Source: a bacterium (GTDB lineage: Bacteria; T1Sed10-126). From it: 6,334 nt of DNA. The notes beneath the pieces are model-generated. The model was given only the letters and a program-made list of their open reading frames with translations. It was not told the origin of the DNA and made no database searches. Below, piece by piece: positions 157 to 6,334 of this stretch. Position numbers and translations under genes: made by a program. The number at the start of each line of letters is the position of its first letter. Positions within the stretch are counted from its first letter, which is position 1. Location: positions 1 through 6,334 of the forward strand of contig PWHN01000061.1 in the NCBI GenBank assembly GCA_003554945.1. The letters are read 5' to 3'.

Positions 157-166
157 AAAGGGGTGA
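157..166 (+). promoter_or_regulatory. Ribosome binding site that decides the rbsK-like start
   Basis: AAAGGGGTGA matches 8 of 10 bases of the anti-Shine-Dalgarno complement AAGGAGGTGA. It ends 5 bases before the in-frame TTG at 172. The upstream in-frame GTG at 163-165 lies inside this site, so it could not use it for initiation. An in-frame TAA at 157-159 closes the frame above that. TTG at 172 is therefore the best start. Confidence 0.75.
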
Positions 167-171
167 GTCCT

Positions 172-1068
172 TTGCAGACAATCGGCGTAGTAACAAGCTG
201 TATTATGGATTTGACTTTTGAGGTGCCGGAGCTTCCCCGACCCGGCGAGACAGTGGCGACGGATAATTTCCACACCGGCTTCGGCGGCAAAGGCGCCAAC
301 CAGGCCGTTGCTGCAGCTAAAACCGGCGCTAAAGTCCAGGTCATAGGCACCGTTGGAGAGGACGACTTTGGCTGTGATACGATCGTTAATTTCGAGAAAA
401 ATAACATCAATACCGAATATATTTACCAGTTTGAAGAGGAAGGCACCGGGCTGGCTTCAATATACGTCGACGCCGAAGGAGAAAACGCCATCGGTGTAGC
501 CCTCCGGGCCAATCGCCTGCTCTCGGCGGAACATGTCGAAAAAATTCCTGACAGATGGTTTGAGAAAATTGATATTATAGCCGGGGTGCTGGAAATTGCC
601 CCGCCAGTATTAAGGAAAAGTTTTGCCCGCAGCAAGGAAAGCGGCGACACACTGACGGTGCTTAACGCCGCCCCGGCCCGGGAAATACCCGAGGACCTAT
701 GGCAGCTCACTGATGTCTTAATTGTTAACGAAACAGAAGCTGAATTTTACTGCGGTAGCCTGCCCACCTGGGAGCAACCCGAGCCGGCACTGGAAGCTCT
801 GATTGAACGTGGTCCTGAAGTTATCGTCCTCTCCCTGGGTCGCAAGGGAGCCATTGCTTACGTCAACAATGAGATCATACGGGCTCAAGGCAAAGAAGTC
901 GATACAGTCGATACTACCGGCGCCGGCGACGCTTTCATTGGTCGTTACGTGAGTAGCTTAGCAACCGATCAGGATCACGGTTTGGCAATAAACAACGCCA
1001 ACCAATACGCCGCCCGCACCGTCCAGGCGTCAGGCACCCAGAAATCATTCCCCACTTTAAACAACTGA
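172..1068 (+). CDS. rbsK: Ribokinase-type PfkB family carbohydrate kinase
   Basis: A cytosolic sugar kinase of the PfkB/ribokinase fold, expected to phosphorylate D-ribose to ribose 5-phosphate with ATP. Numbered from the TTG start (298 aa), it shows the PGET motif (25-28), the first PfkB signature GGKGANQAV (38-46), the sugar-contacting Glu of the GVLE segment (141), NETEAE (186-191) and the second PfkB signature DTTGAGD (247-253), whose last Asp is the catalytic base. Length and end-to-end motif order fit a complete ribokinase. The N-terminal GSxNxD motif reads TSCIMD: the Asp is kept but Gly and Asn are replaced. Human ribokinase also lacks the Asn, so this is tolerated, but a related sugar or nucleoside substrate remains possible. 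TTG is preferred over GTG at 163 because of the ribosome binding site position. No transporter, rbsD or regulator is visible nearby, so the pathway is open. Family is certain; substrate is probable. Confidence 0.85.
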   Translation: MQTIGVVTSCIMDLTFEVPELPRPGETVATDNFHTGFGGKGANQAVAAAKTGAKVQVIGTVGEDDFGCDTIVNFEKNNINTEYIYQFEEEGTGLASIYVDAEGENAIGVALRANRLLSAEHVEKIPDRWFEKIDIIAGVLEIAPPVLRKSFARSKESGDTLTVLNAAPAREIPEDLWQLTDVLIVNETEAEFYCGSLPTWEQPEPALEALIERGPEVIVLSLGRKGAIAYVNNEIIRAQGKEVDTVDTTGAGDAFIGRYVSSLATDQDHGLAINNANQYAARTVQASGTQKSFPTLNN

Positions 1069-1387
1069 TTAACTTGATCTATTTTGTCATAAGCTCTTCT
1101 CCATACTCCAAGCTCTACCAGCGTAATTCTGGGAAAGTGACTGCAGATCTAATCCCTTACATCTAATCCTCCACCACCTACCGACGTCATTCCGGGCGAA
1201 GTGAGCGAAGCGAACGTAGACCCGGAATCTATGGTAACTTCAAAATGGATTGCCAGGTCAAGCCCGACAATGACGGGGGTTCGGTAGGTTCTGCTAATCA
1301 CCTACACTTTCTTGACAAAACAGTGGGAGCTATGACACCATTTACCGCCTTAAAATTAAATCACTGCAGAGAAAGGGCTTCACGGAA
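1069..1387. other. 319-bp intergenic region between the kinase and clc
   Basis: No credible coding frame is seen. The region holds the repeat element at 1176-1289. Left of it is a featureless stretch (1069-1175) without a hairpin plus T-tract, so no intrinsic terminator for the kinase gene is evident. Right of it, TTGACA at 1312-1317 could be a -35 box, but no acceptable -10 box lies 16-18 bp downstream. AAAGGG at 1372-1377 is a plausible, slightly distant ribosome binding site for clc (10-base spacing). Confidence 0.6.
1176..1289. repeat. MITE-like palindromic repeat element with 9-bp terminal inverted repeats
   Basis: The 114-bp block is bounded by a perfect inverted repeat, ACCTACCGA (1176-1184) and TCGGTAGGT (1281-1289). 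Inside, CGTCATT (1185-1191) faces AATGACG (1269-1275). Two internal hairpins are visible. Hairpin A pairs ATTCCGGG (1189-1196) with CCCGGAAT (1221-1228) around a purine-rich loop containing GAGCGAAGCGAA. Hairpin B pairs ATTGCCAGG (1249-1257) with CCCGACAAT (1263-1271), with two G-U wobbles in one orientation, around a 5-nt loop. The whole block could also fold as one long imperfect hairpin. GTCATTCC...GGAATC palindromes of this type are common dispersed intergenic repeats in many bacteria. No coding capacity is present and no directly flanking target duplication is seen. Confidence 0.7.
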
Positions 1388-3649
1388 ATGAAAGACAATA
1401 GTCGCCCCTATTCACCGGCACAGTCAGGAAAAAGATTTCCTTTACTAACACGCCTGCAGAGCAAAATATATCGTTATTTTCAAGACTTCGGTCCCTTGCA
1501 GGTAATAATTCTCTCCTCGCTTATTGGTTTTGTCGGCGGTTTGGGTTCAATTGCCTTTAAAGCTCTTATTTTACTCTTTAAATACTTGTTCTATGGTGCA
1601 ACTTCAACAGACGGTTTTCTGGCGACAGTCGTCGCTCTCCCCTGGCAGTGGCGCTTGTTTGCTCCCGCCGTTGGTGGCCTGATTATCGGCCCGCTAATTT
1701 ATTACCTCGTCCCCGAAGCAAAAGGGCACGGCGTGCCCGAAGTCATGGAAGGAGTCTCCTTTCACGACGGCAAGTTACGCCTGCGCGTTGTTCCCATGAA
1801 AGCTTTAATTTCCGCCATCTGTATCGGTTCTGGTGGATCGGCGGGACGTGAGGGGCCGATTGTGCAAATAGGTTCCGCCTTTGGTTCAACCGTCGGTCAA
1901 TTCCTTAATCTCTCCGCGGCTCGAACAAAAACTCTTTTAGCTGCCGGCGCAGCAGCCGGTATTGCCGGGACTTTTTATGCCCCCCTGGCCGGTGTAATTT
2001 TCAGCATCGAGGTTATATTACGCAAAATCAGACCAACAGATTTTGCAATAATTGTAATTGCTTCCGTGATTGGAACTGCAATCTCCAACACTTATGCCGG
2101 TGGTATTTACGCTGTCTTTGACATTCCGGTTCATGAAATGATTACAATGTGGGAGTTATTACTCTACGCCGGACTTGGTTTTGTTGGTGCGGTTGTCGCC
2201 CTAATTTATACAAACACCCTCTACGCCATGGAAGACATCTTTGAAAAATTTCCACTCCATCCCGCCCTTATACCAGCTCTTGGCGGACTTTTGCTTGGAC
2301 TTTTAGCCCTTTATATTCCTCAAATACACGCCACCGGATATCCGGTCATGGAGGAAGCCCTGCACGGCAATCTCCCCCTCCAGTTGGTTTTCATCTTCAT
2401 GGTCGCTAAAATTCTCGCCACAATTTTAACTCTTGGCAGCGGTGGTTCAGGTGGAATTTTCGCGCCGGCGCTTTTCATTGGCTCCATGATGGGCAGCACA
2501 TACGGACACCTGGTAAACAACTGGTTGCCCAACATGACCGGTGGGCCCGGGTCCTATGCCATGGTTGGAATGGGCGCCGTCTTCGCCGGTGCCACTCACG
2601 CACCGCTGACCGCGGTTATCATCCTTTTTGAAATGACCCACGACCACCGCATAATACTGCCCATGATGTTTGCCTGTATCATTAGCTCTTTTGTTACCAA
2701 AATCTACCAGAAAAAGAATATCTATACTACCAAACTTCTTAACCGTGGACTGGATATCGATTCGGTTGAAGAACACGAAAAACTTGAAAAAATTACGGTT
2801 CGCGAGGCAATGACTCCCGACCCGATCACTATTTCTGAAGAAACTACAATAAAAGAAGCCCGTAAATCCTTCGAAAAGAGCTTCTACTCTCATCTGCCCG
2901 TTGTTAGCAGTGATTCCGGGGAACTTATAGGTATTTTAAGCCATCACCAGGTTTTTGATGTTGACCCGGAAAACGACCAGCAAATAGCCCGGGAAGTCTC
3001 TGTTCCTCCAGGCACCACTATTTTTGAAGATGATAACCTGCTGCAGGCACTGGAGCTAATTAGTCAGATTTCAATGAAAATTATCCCGGTTATTGCCACT
3101 GACGGCTCAAACCGCCTTGTCGGCATCCTGGCCCGCGGCGATATCATGGACAATTTTTCCCAACAAATTCTGGCCAAACAGGATAAAGTAACTTTTGACA
3201 TCAGTACACGCACCCGTACTACTGTTCAGGACCTGGTCAACGCATCCATTCAGCCGGTTAAAAAGCAAGCCCGGGAGGCCAACATTACAATCCTGACTGA
3301 CATCGATGAGAATTTACCCGAGATAAAAGTAGACTTTACAAAAATAAGCTGGGTGATTACCAGTCTGCTCGGTAATGCTATTCGCTATAGTAAATCGGGA
3401 GACGAAATAATAGTGGCTGCCAGGAAAAGAGACGAAGACGTCCTGATCACTGTTTCAGACAATGGAGCCGGTATGCCCCCCAGATGCCAGCGTTTGATTT
3501 TTTCTGAACGTAAAGAGGATCAGGACCCTCAAAAGTGCCAGGGACTGGCGATCGCTCGCGAAATTGTTGAGGGACACAAGGGCGAGATGTGGATTGAGAG
3601 CACCTCCTGGGAGGGAACGGACGTTTACTTCACCATCCCCCTTTCTTAA
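1388..3649 (+). CDS. ClC chloride channel/transporter with CBS pair and C-terminal histidine-kinase-type ATPase domain
   Basis: An inner-membrane ClC family anion channel or transporter of 753 aa, much longer than the roughly 420-470 aa of a bare bacterial ClC. Domains in order: a short cytosolic N-terminus (1-35); the ClC membrane domain (about 36-440) with GHGVP (113-117), GSGGSAGREGP (147-157, gating Glu155), GIFAP (356-360) and the pore-type Tyr446; a CBS pair (about 469-523 and 532-590); and a HATPase_c domain (about 611-753). The last has the N-box Asn663 in LLGNA, the G1 box DNGAGM (691-696, Asp691) and a reduced G2 region ending GLAIA (719-723). No HisKA helix pair with a phosphoacceptor His lies between CBS2 and the ATPase domain. 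The central-site Ser of ClC-ec1 is His114 here, and the internal proton Glu203 position is Val209, as in channel-type ClCs. The frame is open across both junctions, with no internal stop or start signal. ATG follows AAAGGG at 10-base spacing. The gene is convergent with trkH. Confidence 0.92.
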   Translation: MKDNSRPYSPAQSGKRFPLLTRLQSKIYRYFQDFGPLQVIILSSLIGFVGGLGSIAFKALILLFKYLFYGATSTDGFLATVVALPWQWRLFAPAVGGLIIGPLIYYLVPEAKGHGVPEVMEGVSFHDGKLRLRVVPMKALISAICIGSGGSAGREGPIVQIGSAFGSTVGQFLNLSAARTKTLLAAGAAAGIAGTFYAPLAGVIFSIEVILRKIRPTDFAIIVIASVIGTAISNTYAGGIYAVFDIPVHEMITMWELLLYAGLGFVGAVVALIYTNTLYAMEDIFEKFPLHPALIPALGGLLLGLLALYIPQIHATGYPVMEEALHGNLPLQLVFIFMVAKILATILTLGSGGSGGIFAPALFIGSMMGSTYGHLVNNWLPNMTGGPGSYAMVGMGAVFAGATHAPLTAVIILFEMTHDHRIILPMMFACIISSFVTKIYQKKNIYTTKLLNRGLDIDSVEEHEKLEKITVREAMTPDPITISEETTIKEARKSFEKSFYSHLPVVSSDSGELIGILSHHQVFDVDPENDQQIAREVSVPPGTTIFEDDNLLQALELISQISMKIIPVIATDGSNRLVGILARGDIMDNFSQQILAKQDKVTFDISTRTRTTVQDLVNASIQPVKKQAREANITILTDIDENLPEIKVDFTKISWVITSLLGNAIRYSKSGDEIIVAARKRDEDVLITVSDNGAGMPPRCQRLIFSERKEDQDPQKCQGLAIAREIVEGHKGEMWIESTSWEGTDVYFTIPLS
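3218..3646 (+). other. HATPase_c (GHKL) domain-encoding segment fused to clc
   Basis: This segment encodes residues 611-753 of the ClC protein. The pattern follows the catalytic domain of sensor histidine kinases: a lead-in helix with IQPVKKQARE, then ITILTDIDENLPEIKVD, the N-box SLLGNAIRYS (659-668), the G1 box VSDNGAGMPP (689-698), and the final GLAIAREIVEGHKGEMWIES run (719-738) with a terminal TDVYFTIPL strand. The Mg-coordinating Asn663 and adenine-contacting Asp691 are present. The first N-box Asn is Ser659, and the usual GTGLGLA of the G2 box reads KCQGLA, so the ATP lid is only partly conserved. ATP or ADP binding is plausible; phosphotransfer to its own chain is not, because no DHp domain is present. 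Confidence 0.85.
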
Positions 3650-3655
3650 TTCCAG

Positions 3656-5140
3656 CTATTTCCAGTAAGCCGGCGTAAAGACGATAAATACAGTAAAAAT
3701 TTCCAGCCGGCCCAGCCACATCAAAACTGCACATATTAACCTGGAGACCGGTGATAAAACCAGGTAATTTTCCATTGGACCAAATGCTCCCAGACCGGGG
3801 CCGATGTTGCCCAGCGATGCCGCCGACGCACTCATCAATTCAAGCGGCGCAAACTCCGTCCCCACCCGGAGAGCATCTAACTGTAAGAAGAGTGTCCCCA
3901 GCAAAAAGACAGAAAAATAGGCTAAAATCATAATGATTATGTTTTTGACAATTTTTTCACTTACTATCTTCTTCCCCCGCCGCAGCGGACGCACGGCGTC
4001 CGGATGAACCGTGGTAAACAGCTCACGAATTATGGATTTTATTCCAACCAGCCAGCGGACTATTTTAATTCCACCGCCGGTGCTGCCGGAACAACCGCCA
4101 ACAAACATCAATAGAAACAACACTGTTATTACAAGTCCCGACCAGCCTGCAAAATCGGCGCTTGCATAGCCCGTGGTCGTGATAATCGTTAAAATTTGAA
4201 AAAAGCTGTGTCTCCAGGCTTCAAGTTGGTCAAAATCAAGGCTAACAATCAGCCCCAGGAAAACTAGTAGCGCCGCTATCAGAACTACTGCCAGGTAGAG
4301 CAGAAATTCTTTGTTCTCTCGCAGTACTGAAAGATGACCGCTGAAGACCCACCAGAGCAGAGCAAAATTTGTCCCGGCAAGAAACATGAAAGGTATAATT
4401 GCCCACTGCGCCGCCGGTGAAAAAGCGGCTATTCCTGCCGCTTCAGTAGAAAATCCCCCCGTCGGCATTGTAGTAAAAGCATGCGCCAGGGCGTTATAAA
4501 AATTCATCCCCGGAGCCTCTCCAAGCTGATAAAGAGAAAATAAAATTCCCACCATTAATACAGTCAAACCAAGATAGACAATCCAGAGACGTCGCGCTGT
4601 CGCCACTATCCGCGGCGCCAGCCGCTCCACGGATGGCCCCGGTGCCTCCGCTTCGATCAACTGTATCCCACCAATAGAGAGTTTGGGAAGGATGGCGACG
4701 GCAAGAACAATAATTCCCATTCCACCCAGCCACTGGCTGAGCTGACGCCACATCATTATAGCGGCGGAATGACGAGCAAAGGATATTTTTTCCATCACCG
4801 TCGCACCAGTAGTGGTAAATCCACTCATTGACTCAAAAAATGCGTTGACAGGTGAGGCAATGGTACCCTGTCCGGCGAAAATATAGGGCAGAGCTCCAAA
4901 AATTGCGGCAACCAGCCAGGTAAGCATTACGAGCAAGAATCCCTCGCGGGTGTTCACTTCAGGATTTTTTTCAAACTGTTCTAAGATTAAACCGAAGACC
5001 ACCACAAGTAAAATGGTAGCCACAAAAACCAGTATATCCTCGCCGGTTAAAATGGCTATAAAAAGAGGCAACAGCAGCGGTACAGAAAGCCAGACAAGTA
5101 TCGAACCAATAAGACTTAAAACGCTTTTGTAATCAACCAT
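3656..5140 (-). CDS. trkH: Trk potassium uptake system pore subunit TrkH
   Basis: A membrane K+ translocating subunit of the TrkH/Ktr/HKT superfamily (494 aa, the usual length), with about ten hydrophobic spans plus four pore loops. All four selectivity-filter loops are recognisable, with their glycines: TTTGAT (Gly112), MPTGGFST (Gly228/229), TTTGYAS (Gly324) and LGNIGPG (Gly444). The family hallmarks GGMGIIVL (139-146) and GGCSGSTGGGIKIVR (348-362), the latter next to the gating region, are intact, as is the C-terminal GRLEIFTV...FTP signature. The ATG is the only possible start, because an in-frame TAA (5147-5149) lies 6 bases upstream. The Shine-Dalgarno GAGAGG is rather distant, about 12 bases. 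The gene follows trkA on the same strand after 114 bases, so co-transcription is likely. Its stop is 6 bases from the clc stop, tail to tail. Nothing appears truncated. Confidence 0.95.
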   Translation of the reverse strand: MVDYKSVLSLIGSILVWLSVPLLLPLFIAILTGEDILVFVATILLVVVFGLILEQFEKNPEVNTREGFLLVMLTWLVAAIFGALPYIFAGQGTIASPVNAFFESMSGFTTTGATVMEKISFARHSAAIMMWRQLSQWLGGMGIIVLAVAILPKLSIGGIQLIEAEAPGPSVERLAPRIVATARRLWIVYLGLTVLMVGILFSLYQLGEAPGMNFYNALAHAFTTMPTGGFSTEAAGIAAFSPAAQWAIIPFMFLAGTNFALLWWVFSGHLSVLRENKEFLLYLAVVLIAALLVFLGLIVSLDFDQLEAWRHSFFQILTIITTTGYASADFAGWSGLVITVLFLLMFVGGCSGSTGGGIKIVRWLVGIKSIIRELFTTVHPDAVRPLRRGKKIVSEKIVKNIIIMILAYFSVFLLGTLFLQLDALRVGTEFAPLELMSASAASLGNIGPGLGAFGPMENYLVLSPVSRLICAVLMWLGRLEIFTVFIVFTPAYWK

Positions 5141-5254: not shown

Positions 5255-6334
5255 CTACTTAAGCCGTTCAGCAACATCTTCGGCCTGTTCAGCGTCCGTA
5301 AGCACTACAAGCCGGTCGCCCACTCGCAGCTCAGTTTCCCCTCTTGGAGTCAGCACTTTACCTCCACGAATTACGGCCCCGATAGTCATCCGTTCAGAAA
5401 GTGAACTCACACTTTCGGACAGCCGGCGTTCAACAAGCTCACTTTGCGGCCCTACCTCCACTTCAAATACAGTTCCCCGGTGGTGTTCAATGCTGGTAAT
5501 ATTTTCAGCGTAGTCTACTTCGATATATCGAATTATCTCCTCAGAAACCTCTTCCCGGGGATTAACTACATAATCAACCGCCGTTGATTCAAACAAATCA
5601 ACAAATTGCTTCTCGTGCACAATCGAGACAACCTGAGGGATACCCTTGCTCTTAGCCAGCAGGGAAACAAGCAAATTATCGGCATCTGGGTTAACTGCTC
5701 CAACGGCCATATCGGCTCTTGCTAAGTTTTCCCGCTGCCAGAGTCCCTCATCTGTCGCACTGCCGTGAAGAACCAGGGCTTCAGGCAGGTTTTCAGCCAG
5801 TTTTCGTGCTCGCTGTTCATTCTTTTCAACCACAGTGATGTCGACTGAATACTTTTGAAGCTGCCGGACAATTTGATAACCGAAACTGCCGCCACCGAAA
5901 ACTACAAGATCGGAAATATCCAAGTCAAATTCGGACGGGTAAATATCGCGCCCAAACTGGTCAACTTTATCCGGCACACCGATAACCGCTATTCGGTCGC
6001 CCGCTTCTATAACGTCACCACCGCGCGGAAAAATAAGTTCTTTGTCGCGGAAAATCGCTCCAAAAGTGAGGTGCTGAAATTGGTCAGCTTCTTCAACACT
6101 CTGACCGGCGACCGGACTGTTTTCTGGCACTTCATAAACGGCCATCTGGATTTTTGCGTCAACAAAAAATTCGACTTCCCTCGCCGGCTGGCGGCGGGAG
6201 CTGTAGGCAACCAATCGTGTAATGCTCTCAGCAGCTAACAGAGCCCGCCCAAGCATCAAATCAACGCCAAAAGCTCCGGCTGAATGTCTCCAGGTTTTCA
6301 GATAGTCCGTATTAGTCACCCGGGCTATCGTGAA
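5255..6334 (-). CDS. trkA: Trk potassium uptake regulator TrkA (5' end beyond window)
   Basis: A cytosolic NAD(H)/nucleotide-binding RCK protein that forms the gating ring under TrkH. The visible part is 359 codons, while tandem TrkA proteins are about 450 aa, so roughly the first 90-100 residues are missing off the right edge. Numbered from the window edge, it holds: the tail of the first TrkA-N domain (1 to about 45, beginning FTIARVTNTDYLKTW); the first TrkA-C (about 53-120); the second TrkA-N (about 141-267), with a Rossmann glycine motif GGGSFG (147-152) and an acidic Glu170 ending beta-2, typical of NAD rather than NADP binding; and the second TrkA-C (about 285-350). The GTG at 6317-6319 codes the Val of ARVTN inside the first domain and is not the start, because the frame stays open to the window end. 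It is the first gene of a probable trkA-trkH unit. Confidence 0.93.
   Translation of the reverse strand, partial: FTIARVTNTDYLKTWRHSAGAFGVDLMLGRALLAAESITRLVAYSSRRQPAREVEFFVDAKIQMAVYEVPENSPVAGQSVEEADQFQHLTFGAIFRDKELIFPRGGDVIEAGDRIAVIGVPDKVDQFGRDIYPSEFDLDISDLVVFGGGSFGYQIVRQLQKYSVDITVVEKNEQRARKLAENLPEALVLHGSATDEGLWQRENLARADMAVGAVNPDADNLLVSLLAKSKGIPQVVSIVHEKQFVDLFESTAVDYVVNPREEVSEEIIRYIEVDYAENITSIEHHRGTVFEVEVGPQSELVERRLSESVSSLSERMTIGAVIRGGKVLTPRGETELRVGDRLVVLTDAEQAEDVAERLK

Follow-up and report, generated by a model that had tools for sequence, protein, structure and literature searches.

The window, by which we mean the whole 6,334-nucleotide stretch of DNA analysed here, carries on its plus strand a gene (1388..3649) that starts with ATG and encodes a protein of 753 amino acids in a single uninterrupted open reading frame. 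Pfam identified in this protein a Voltage_CLC domain (residues 96-437, 1.9e-101), two CBS domains (3e-21) and a C-terminal HATPase_c domain (residues 652-752, 9.2e-18). The HATPase_c match reached 65 bits against a cut-off of 26.4, and the other Pfam domains were also well above cut-off. In order along the gene, the ClC membrane domain (1478..2767, residues 31-460, around the Pfam core) is followed by CBS domain 1 (2798..2959, residues 471-524), CBS domain 2 (2990..3154, about residues 535-589, with boundaries taken from the L029 match and the alignment) and a histidine-kinase-type CA domain without DHp (3200..3646, residues 605-753). A preliminary description of this DNA had joined a full ClC domain, two CBS domains and a HATPase_c domain with N-box and G1-box motifs in one frame, and the ORF and Pfam results bear this out, with both boxes intact. 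We refine that reading in placing the start of the CA domain near residue 605, in finding no DHp or H-box ahead of it, and in recognizing that its G2 box is degenerate. Rfam returned no match.

Upstream of the fusion gene lies a gene for a PfkB-family sugar kinase (163..1068, plus strand). Downstream, only 6 bp away and convergent with it, is the gene for a TrkH K+ uptake subunit (3656..5140, minus strand), followed by that of a TrkA K+ uptake regulator (5255..6334, minus strand), which is cut by the end of the window and has a full-length homologue on the related contig L028. L028 has the same gene order, with the PfkB kinase ahead of the ClC fusion and the convergent TrkH and TrkA behind it. 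Past this block, L028 has what appears by eye to be a second, putative TrkH/TrkA-like (Ktr-type) K+ uptake pair (L028:12229-14235). Between the PfkB and ClC genes of the window (1189-1230) we noted a short REP-like inverted repeat, ATTCCGGG...CCCGGAAT, two further copies of which, with 3 mismatches, occur elsewhere in the window genome.

The whole membrane domain is homologous to CLC-ec1 family structures (1e-44 to 1e-48). By alignment, Glu155 (1850..1852, plus strand), which lies in a GREGP motif, corresponds to the gating glutamate Glu148 of CLC-ec1 and is invariant in 47 of 47 ClC rows, and the helix-R tyrosine is present as Tyr446. The internal proton glutamate of CLC-ec1-type H+/Cl- exchangers is absent from the fusion protein, where the alignments place Val209 (2012..2014, plus strand) at the position of CLC-ec1 Glu203. 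This position is V, I or L in 45 of the 47 ClC relatives, and the Ser107 loop of the fusion protein reads GHGVP. Replacements of the Val209 type together with GHGVP point to a channel or a poorly H+-coupled anion carrier; some ClCs exchange H+ without a Glu203-type glutamate. Both features are traits of the whole GHGVP-type subfamily and are not specific to the fusion. Val209 thus suggests uncoupled transport, and a channel rather than an H+ exchanger is plausible, but the trait is subfamily-wide and no proof of channel behaviour.

The membrane domain is followed by two consecutive CBS stretches that score above cut-off. CBS2 keeps Asp585, within ARGDI. The equivalent Asp, where the ribose is normally bound, is missing from CBS1, so perhaps not all of the nucleotide sites work. 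Control by nucleotides through CBS domains is established for CLCs and MgtE: mammalian CLC-3/4/5 sense ATP/ADP (PMC7271328), AtCLCa is nucleotide-regulated (PMC10423218) and the CBS domain of MgtE binds ATP (PMC5529423).

Searched alone, the tail matches solved histidine kinases from residue 607 on, with HK853 as the best match (1.3e-16). An AlphaFold model of residues 454-753, built with an alignment of four sequences, gave pLDDT values mostly of 70-94 for the CA domain from residue 610, with low values in the lid and a poor CBS part. The modelled CA superposes on the CA domains of ZraS-ADP, HK853, ThkA, VanS and others with Z of 18-22, and Foldseek E values for the modelled tail go down to 5e-16. 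The top structural match by Z is the atypical kinase DivL, tied with ordinary kinases. The HATPase_c domain that the preliminary description had placed at residues 611-753 is thus supported by profile, sequence match and predicted fold.

CBS2 ends near residue 590, and a short linker precedes the first CA helix. Between CBS2 and CA, none of the five fused proteins that we identified (see below) has an H-box, and kinases encoded in the same genomes have theirs directly upstream of their CA domains. A kinase with an overlooked DHp is ruled out, as there is no H-box and the model lacks a hairpin in the stretch that links the CBS2 helix to CA. With neither the DHp helix pair nor the H-box, the tail does not qualify as a histidine kinase.

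In the core of the nucleotide site, the N-box Asn, the G1 Asp-x-Gly-x-Gly and the F-box do not vary among the five fused proteins. Asn663 and Arg666 of the N-box (SLLGNAIRY, 3362..3388, plus strand) and Asp691, Gly693 and Gly695 of the G1 box (DNGAG, 3458..3472, plus strand) are invariant in all five fused proteins, as are Ile704, Phe705, Gly719 and Leu720. Invariant residues occupy 9 of 12 nucleotide-site motif positions versus 13 of 89 other positions of the domain (Fisher p 3e-5), a conservation that is partly explained by the fold itself. The F-box, the ATP lid, which is shortened, and the degenerate G2 lie within IFSERKEDQDPQKCQGLAI (3497..3553, plus strand). The window protein has KCQGLAI at G2 instead of GxGLGLAI, and four of the five proteins have a shortened lid and Cys in place of the first G2 glycine. 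Nucleotide affinity could be low, because these four have lost that glycine and part of the lid. The fifth, a paralogue encoded in genome G059, has a canonical lid, a GKGLGLS G2 and canonical N and G1 boxes, and its HATPase_c match is 1.1e-28.

The CA domain diverges faster than the ClC domain, with 53% versus 82% identity between the window protein and that of G001. For the pair formed by the first G059 gene (G059a) and the G076 gene, dN is 0.165 and dS about 0.41-0.44 in CA, compared with 0.051 and 0.556 in ClC. With dN below dS in both domains, this pair indicates purifying selection on CA, weaker than that on ClC.

The same fusion was identified in five proteins from four genomes (the window genome G000, G001, G059 and G076) of at least two lineages, which answers whether the architecture recurs in related genomes. 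The protein of G001 (contig L028, MAG CSSed10_354m) is 71% identical to the window protein. G059 encodes two, the first 60% identical to the window protein (L029, “Elusimicrobia bacterium” CSSed10_371m) and the second, the paralogue mentioned above (G059b), 50% identical (L041/L042); that of G076 (L040/L044) is 58% identical. All four of these closest proteins run on past CBS2 into HATPase_c without a stop, and Pfam gives them the architecture of the window protein. When the four genomes, of which the window genome is 93.5% complete, were searched with Voltage_CLC, we recovered only five ClC genes, all of them fusions, and thus no unfused ClC. Soda-lake sediment MAGs of this type, and the sample code CSSed10, are described in PMC6146748, and at least one of the uncultured bacteria bearing the fusion comes from a hypersaline soda lake.

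Across 766 genome searches (some genomes repeated), which scored few candidates per genome under strict cut-offs and so could miss distant fusions, we found the fusion only in these four genomes. Phylum searches around G511, G480 and G585 revealed no close relative, and the fusion was absent from the viral contigs searched. Matches to plasmid-encoded Rhizobium proteins that reached residue 733 were rejected, as these proteins are ClCs of only 604 amino acids and the remainder is alignment spill. In the open-licence literature we found no publication that pairs Voltage_CLC with HATPase_c, in these or equivalent words. The parts are all known; their combination was found neither in that literature nor in the other genomes searched, and the protein is a variant of ClC-CBS proteins.

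The other fusion genes also lie among genes for ion transporters. On L042, one strand carries Mrp-type Na+/H+ antiporter genes, MnhG-EIIA, Na_H_Exchanger-EIIA, the ClC fusion and an SLC12-type transporter, and on L044 an SLC12-type transporter and the ClC fusion are followed by a convergent MnhG-EIIA. The SLC12-type (cation-chloride cotransporter-like) proteins (L042:4982-7195 and L044:21-2270) directly adjoin the ClC fusion in both genomes. EIIA domains fused to the Na_H_Exchanger protein and the Mrp MnhG subunit are encoded near or beside ClC fusions (L042:9468-12055, L044:4585-5424 and L029:2766-3605), and ion transporters with PTS-type tails form a set around these genes. The theme shared by the neighbourhoods is K+, Na+ and Cl- balance, as expected in hypersaline habitats.

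In a tree of 47 ClC proteins, the five fusions and a ClC-CBS protein from a Spirochaetales MAG (L030:6938-9208) form one clade (100/100), in which the placement of the L030 protein is weakly supported (83/60). This protein is 60% identical in the matched ClC-CBS part and has PTS_EIIA_2 (Pfam 3.2e-22) where HATPase_c sits. The five fused CA domains likewise form one clade (98/92) in a CA tree to which kinases of the same genomes were added. Their branching is that of the ClC domains, G059b first, then the window protein with G001 and G059a with G076. As the fused CA domains are one clade and branch like the ClC domains, a single origin of the fusion is most likely. The simplest history would be one fusion without repeated capture, in which EIIA either replaced the CA later or belongs to a relative that branches just outside the clade. 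Among outgroup ClC-CBS proteins, some stop after CBS2 and others continue into a tail (Pfam TrkA_C in the five tested). With HATPase_c, EIIA, TrkA_C or nothing after CBS2, this slot therefore accepts different sensors.

Comparison with known systems places the fusion closest to ClC-CBS proteins (the prokaryotic GHGVP type, and eukaryotic CLC-3/4/5 and AtCLCa), with which it has in common the ClC fold, the gating glutamate, the CBS pair and a cytosolic regulatory C-terminus. Many prokaryotic GHGVP-type proteins end in TrkA_C, including relatives 40-44% identical that have it after CBS2, and the fusion has a histidine-kinase CA in that position. No relative outside the small fusion clade was found to have such a domain after CBS2. 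In the L030 protein and the EIIA-fused antiporters, which belong to the same ClC clade or the same neighbourhoods, a signalling domain is likewise attached to an ion transporter; EIIA, unlike the CA of the fusion, is a PTS phospho-acceptor. In E. coli, the K+/H+ antiporter YcgO is acted on by a stand-alone protein, PtsN (PMC11808508).

RsbW/SpoIIAB anti-sigma factors, which are soluble Ser kinases from a different HATPase subfamily, are DHp-less Bergerat-fold regulators as well. The fusion shares the lack of DHp with them, whereas its domain is of the HK853/ZraS type and is attached to a channel. The SLC5-STAC histidine kinases CbrA and CrbS also combine a transport domain and histidine-kinase parts in one polypeptide. 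CbrA contains STAC, PAS, DHp and CA domains and acts as the kinase of CbrB (PMC13022988). The fusion, in comparison, has ClC, CBS and only CA, so the usual route of autophosphorylation is not open to it.

We consider it fairly probable, judging from sequence and predicted structure, that the fusion takes part in salt homeostasis as a ClC-type channel or uncoupled carrier of anions in which the CBS pair and the DHp-less CA act as two nucleotide regulators. Such a protein would be a homodimeric anion channel or H+-uncoupled carrier that serves salt and volume homeostasis in salt-adapted bacteria, alongside K+ uptake by Trk and further ion transporters. Its cytosolic gate would be controlled in cis by two modules of the adenine-nucleotide type, first the CBS pair and then the histidine-kinase CA without DHp. 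The CA would probably bind ATP or ADP and convey its conformational state to the membrane domain by way of the CBS dimer, so that anion flux would be tied to energy state. We infer nucleotide binding, its effect on gating, the dimer geometry and the ion carried. The preliminary description had proposed anion flux under nucleotide control through two modules, and among the readings considered this appears the best supported. The part that is phosphorylated is missing, and the kinase domain has therefore probably taken on a new role, regulating salt flow as a nucleotide sensor. A more specific version, which we advance tentatively, is a Bergerat-fold (GHKL) ATP switch in which closure of the CA lid on ATP would open or shut the ClC pore via the CBS dimer.

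Because G2 and the lid are altered in four of the five proteins, the main rival is a structural tail, in which the CA no longer uses nucleotides and serves as a protein-interaction or stabilizing module under the CBS dimer, as in degenerate kinases. The faster divergence of the tail relative to ClC fits this, and so does the top rank of DivL by Z, though it is level with ordinary kinases. The invariance of nine motif residues from Asn663 to Leu720 in all five proteins and the canonical boxes of the G059 paralogue argue against it, and we regard a purely structural role as rather unlikely.

A kinase acting in trans, with the state of the channel setting phosphorylation of a DHp or other partner as in a CbrA-like transceptor, is less probable still. 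Transporter-kinase fusions are known in CbrA and CrbS (PMC13022988, PMC7096432, PMC5715377), and the CA domain of the G059 paralogue is complete. Against this, the fusion has no DHp or H-box, unlike the same-genome kinases, the G2 and lid are reduced in four of five proteins, and the neighbourhoods read contain neither a response regulator, cognate or otherwise, nor a DHp-only gene beside the fusion. The suggestion in the preliminary description that channel state is relayed to a signalling partner has accordingly become less likely, there being no phospho-acceptor His in the protein and no adjoining response regulator in the neighbourhoods read.

That misassembly or a frameshift made the fusion out of a ClC gene and a piece of a kinase gene we reject as extremely improbable: the genomes concerned are all metagenome assemblies or fragmented genomes, but the same junction recurs across genomes on separate contigs in five genes that have diverged (50-71% identical to the window), with congruent trees and open frames without stops.

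If the Bergerat-fold ATP switch is correct, a piece of a two-component kinase has been turned into a domain by which a ligand gates an ion channel. Nucleotide control of the ClC through both modules would mean that a histidine kinase's ATP-binding half is separable from the phospho-acceptor and reusable for direct regulation of an ion channel. The exchange of HATPase_c, EIIA and TrkA_C in the slot after CBS2 suggests that ClC gating tolerates very different plug-in sensors, and the fusion, with its two nucleotide modules, is a compact natural system in which to study how ClC gates read energy state.
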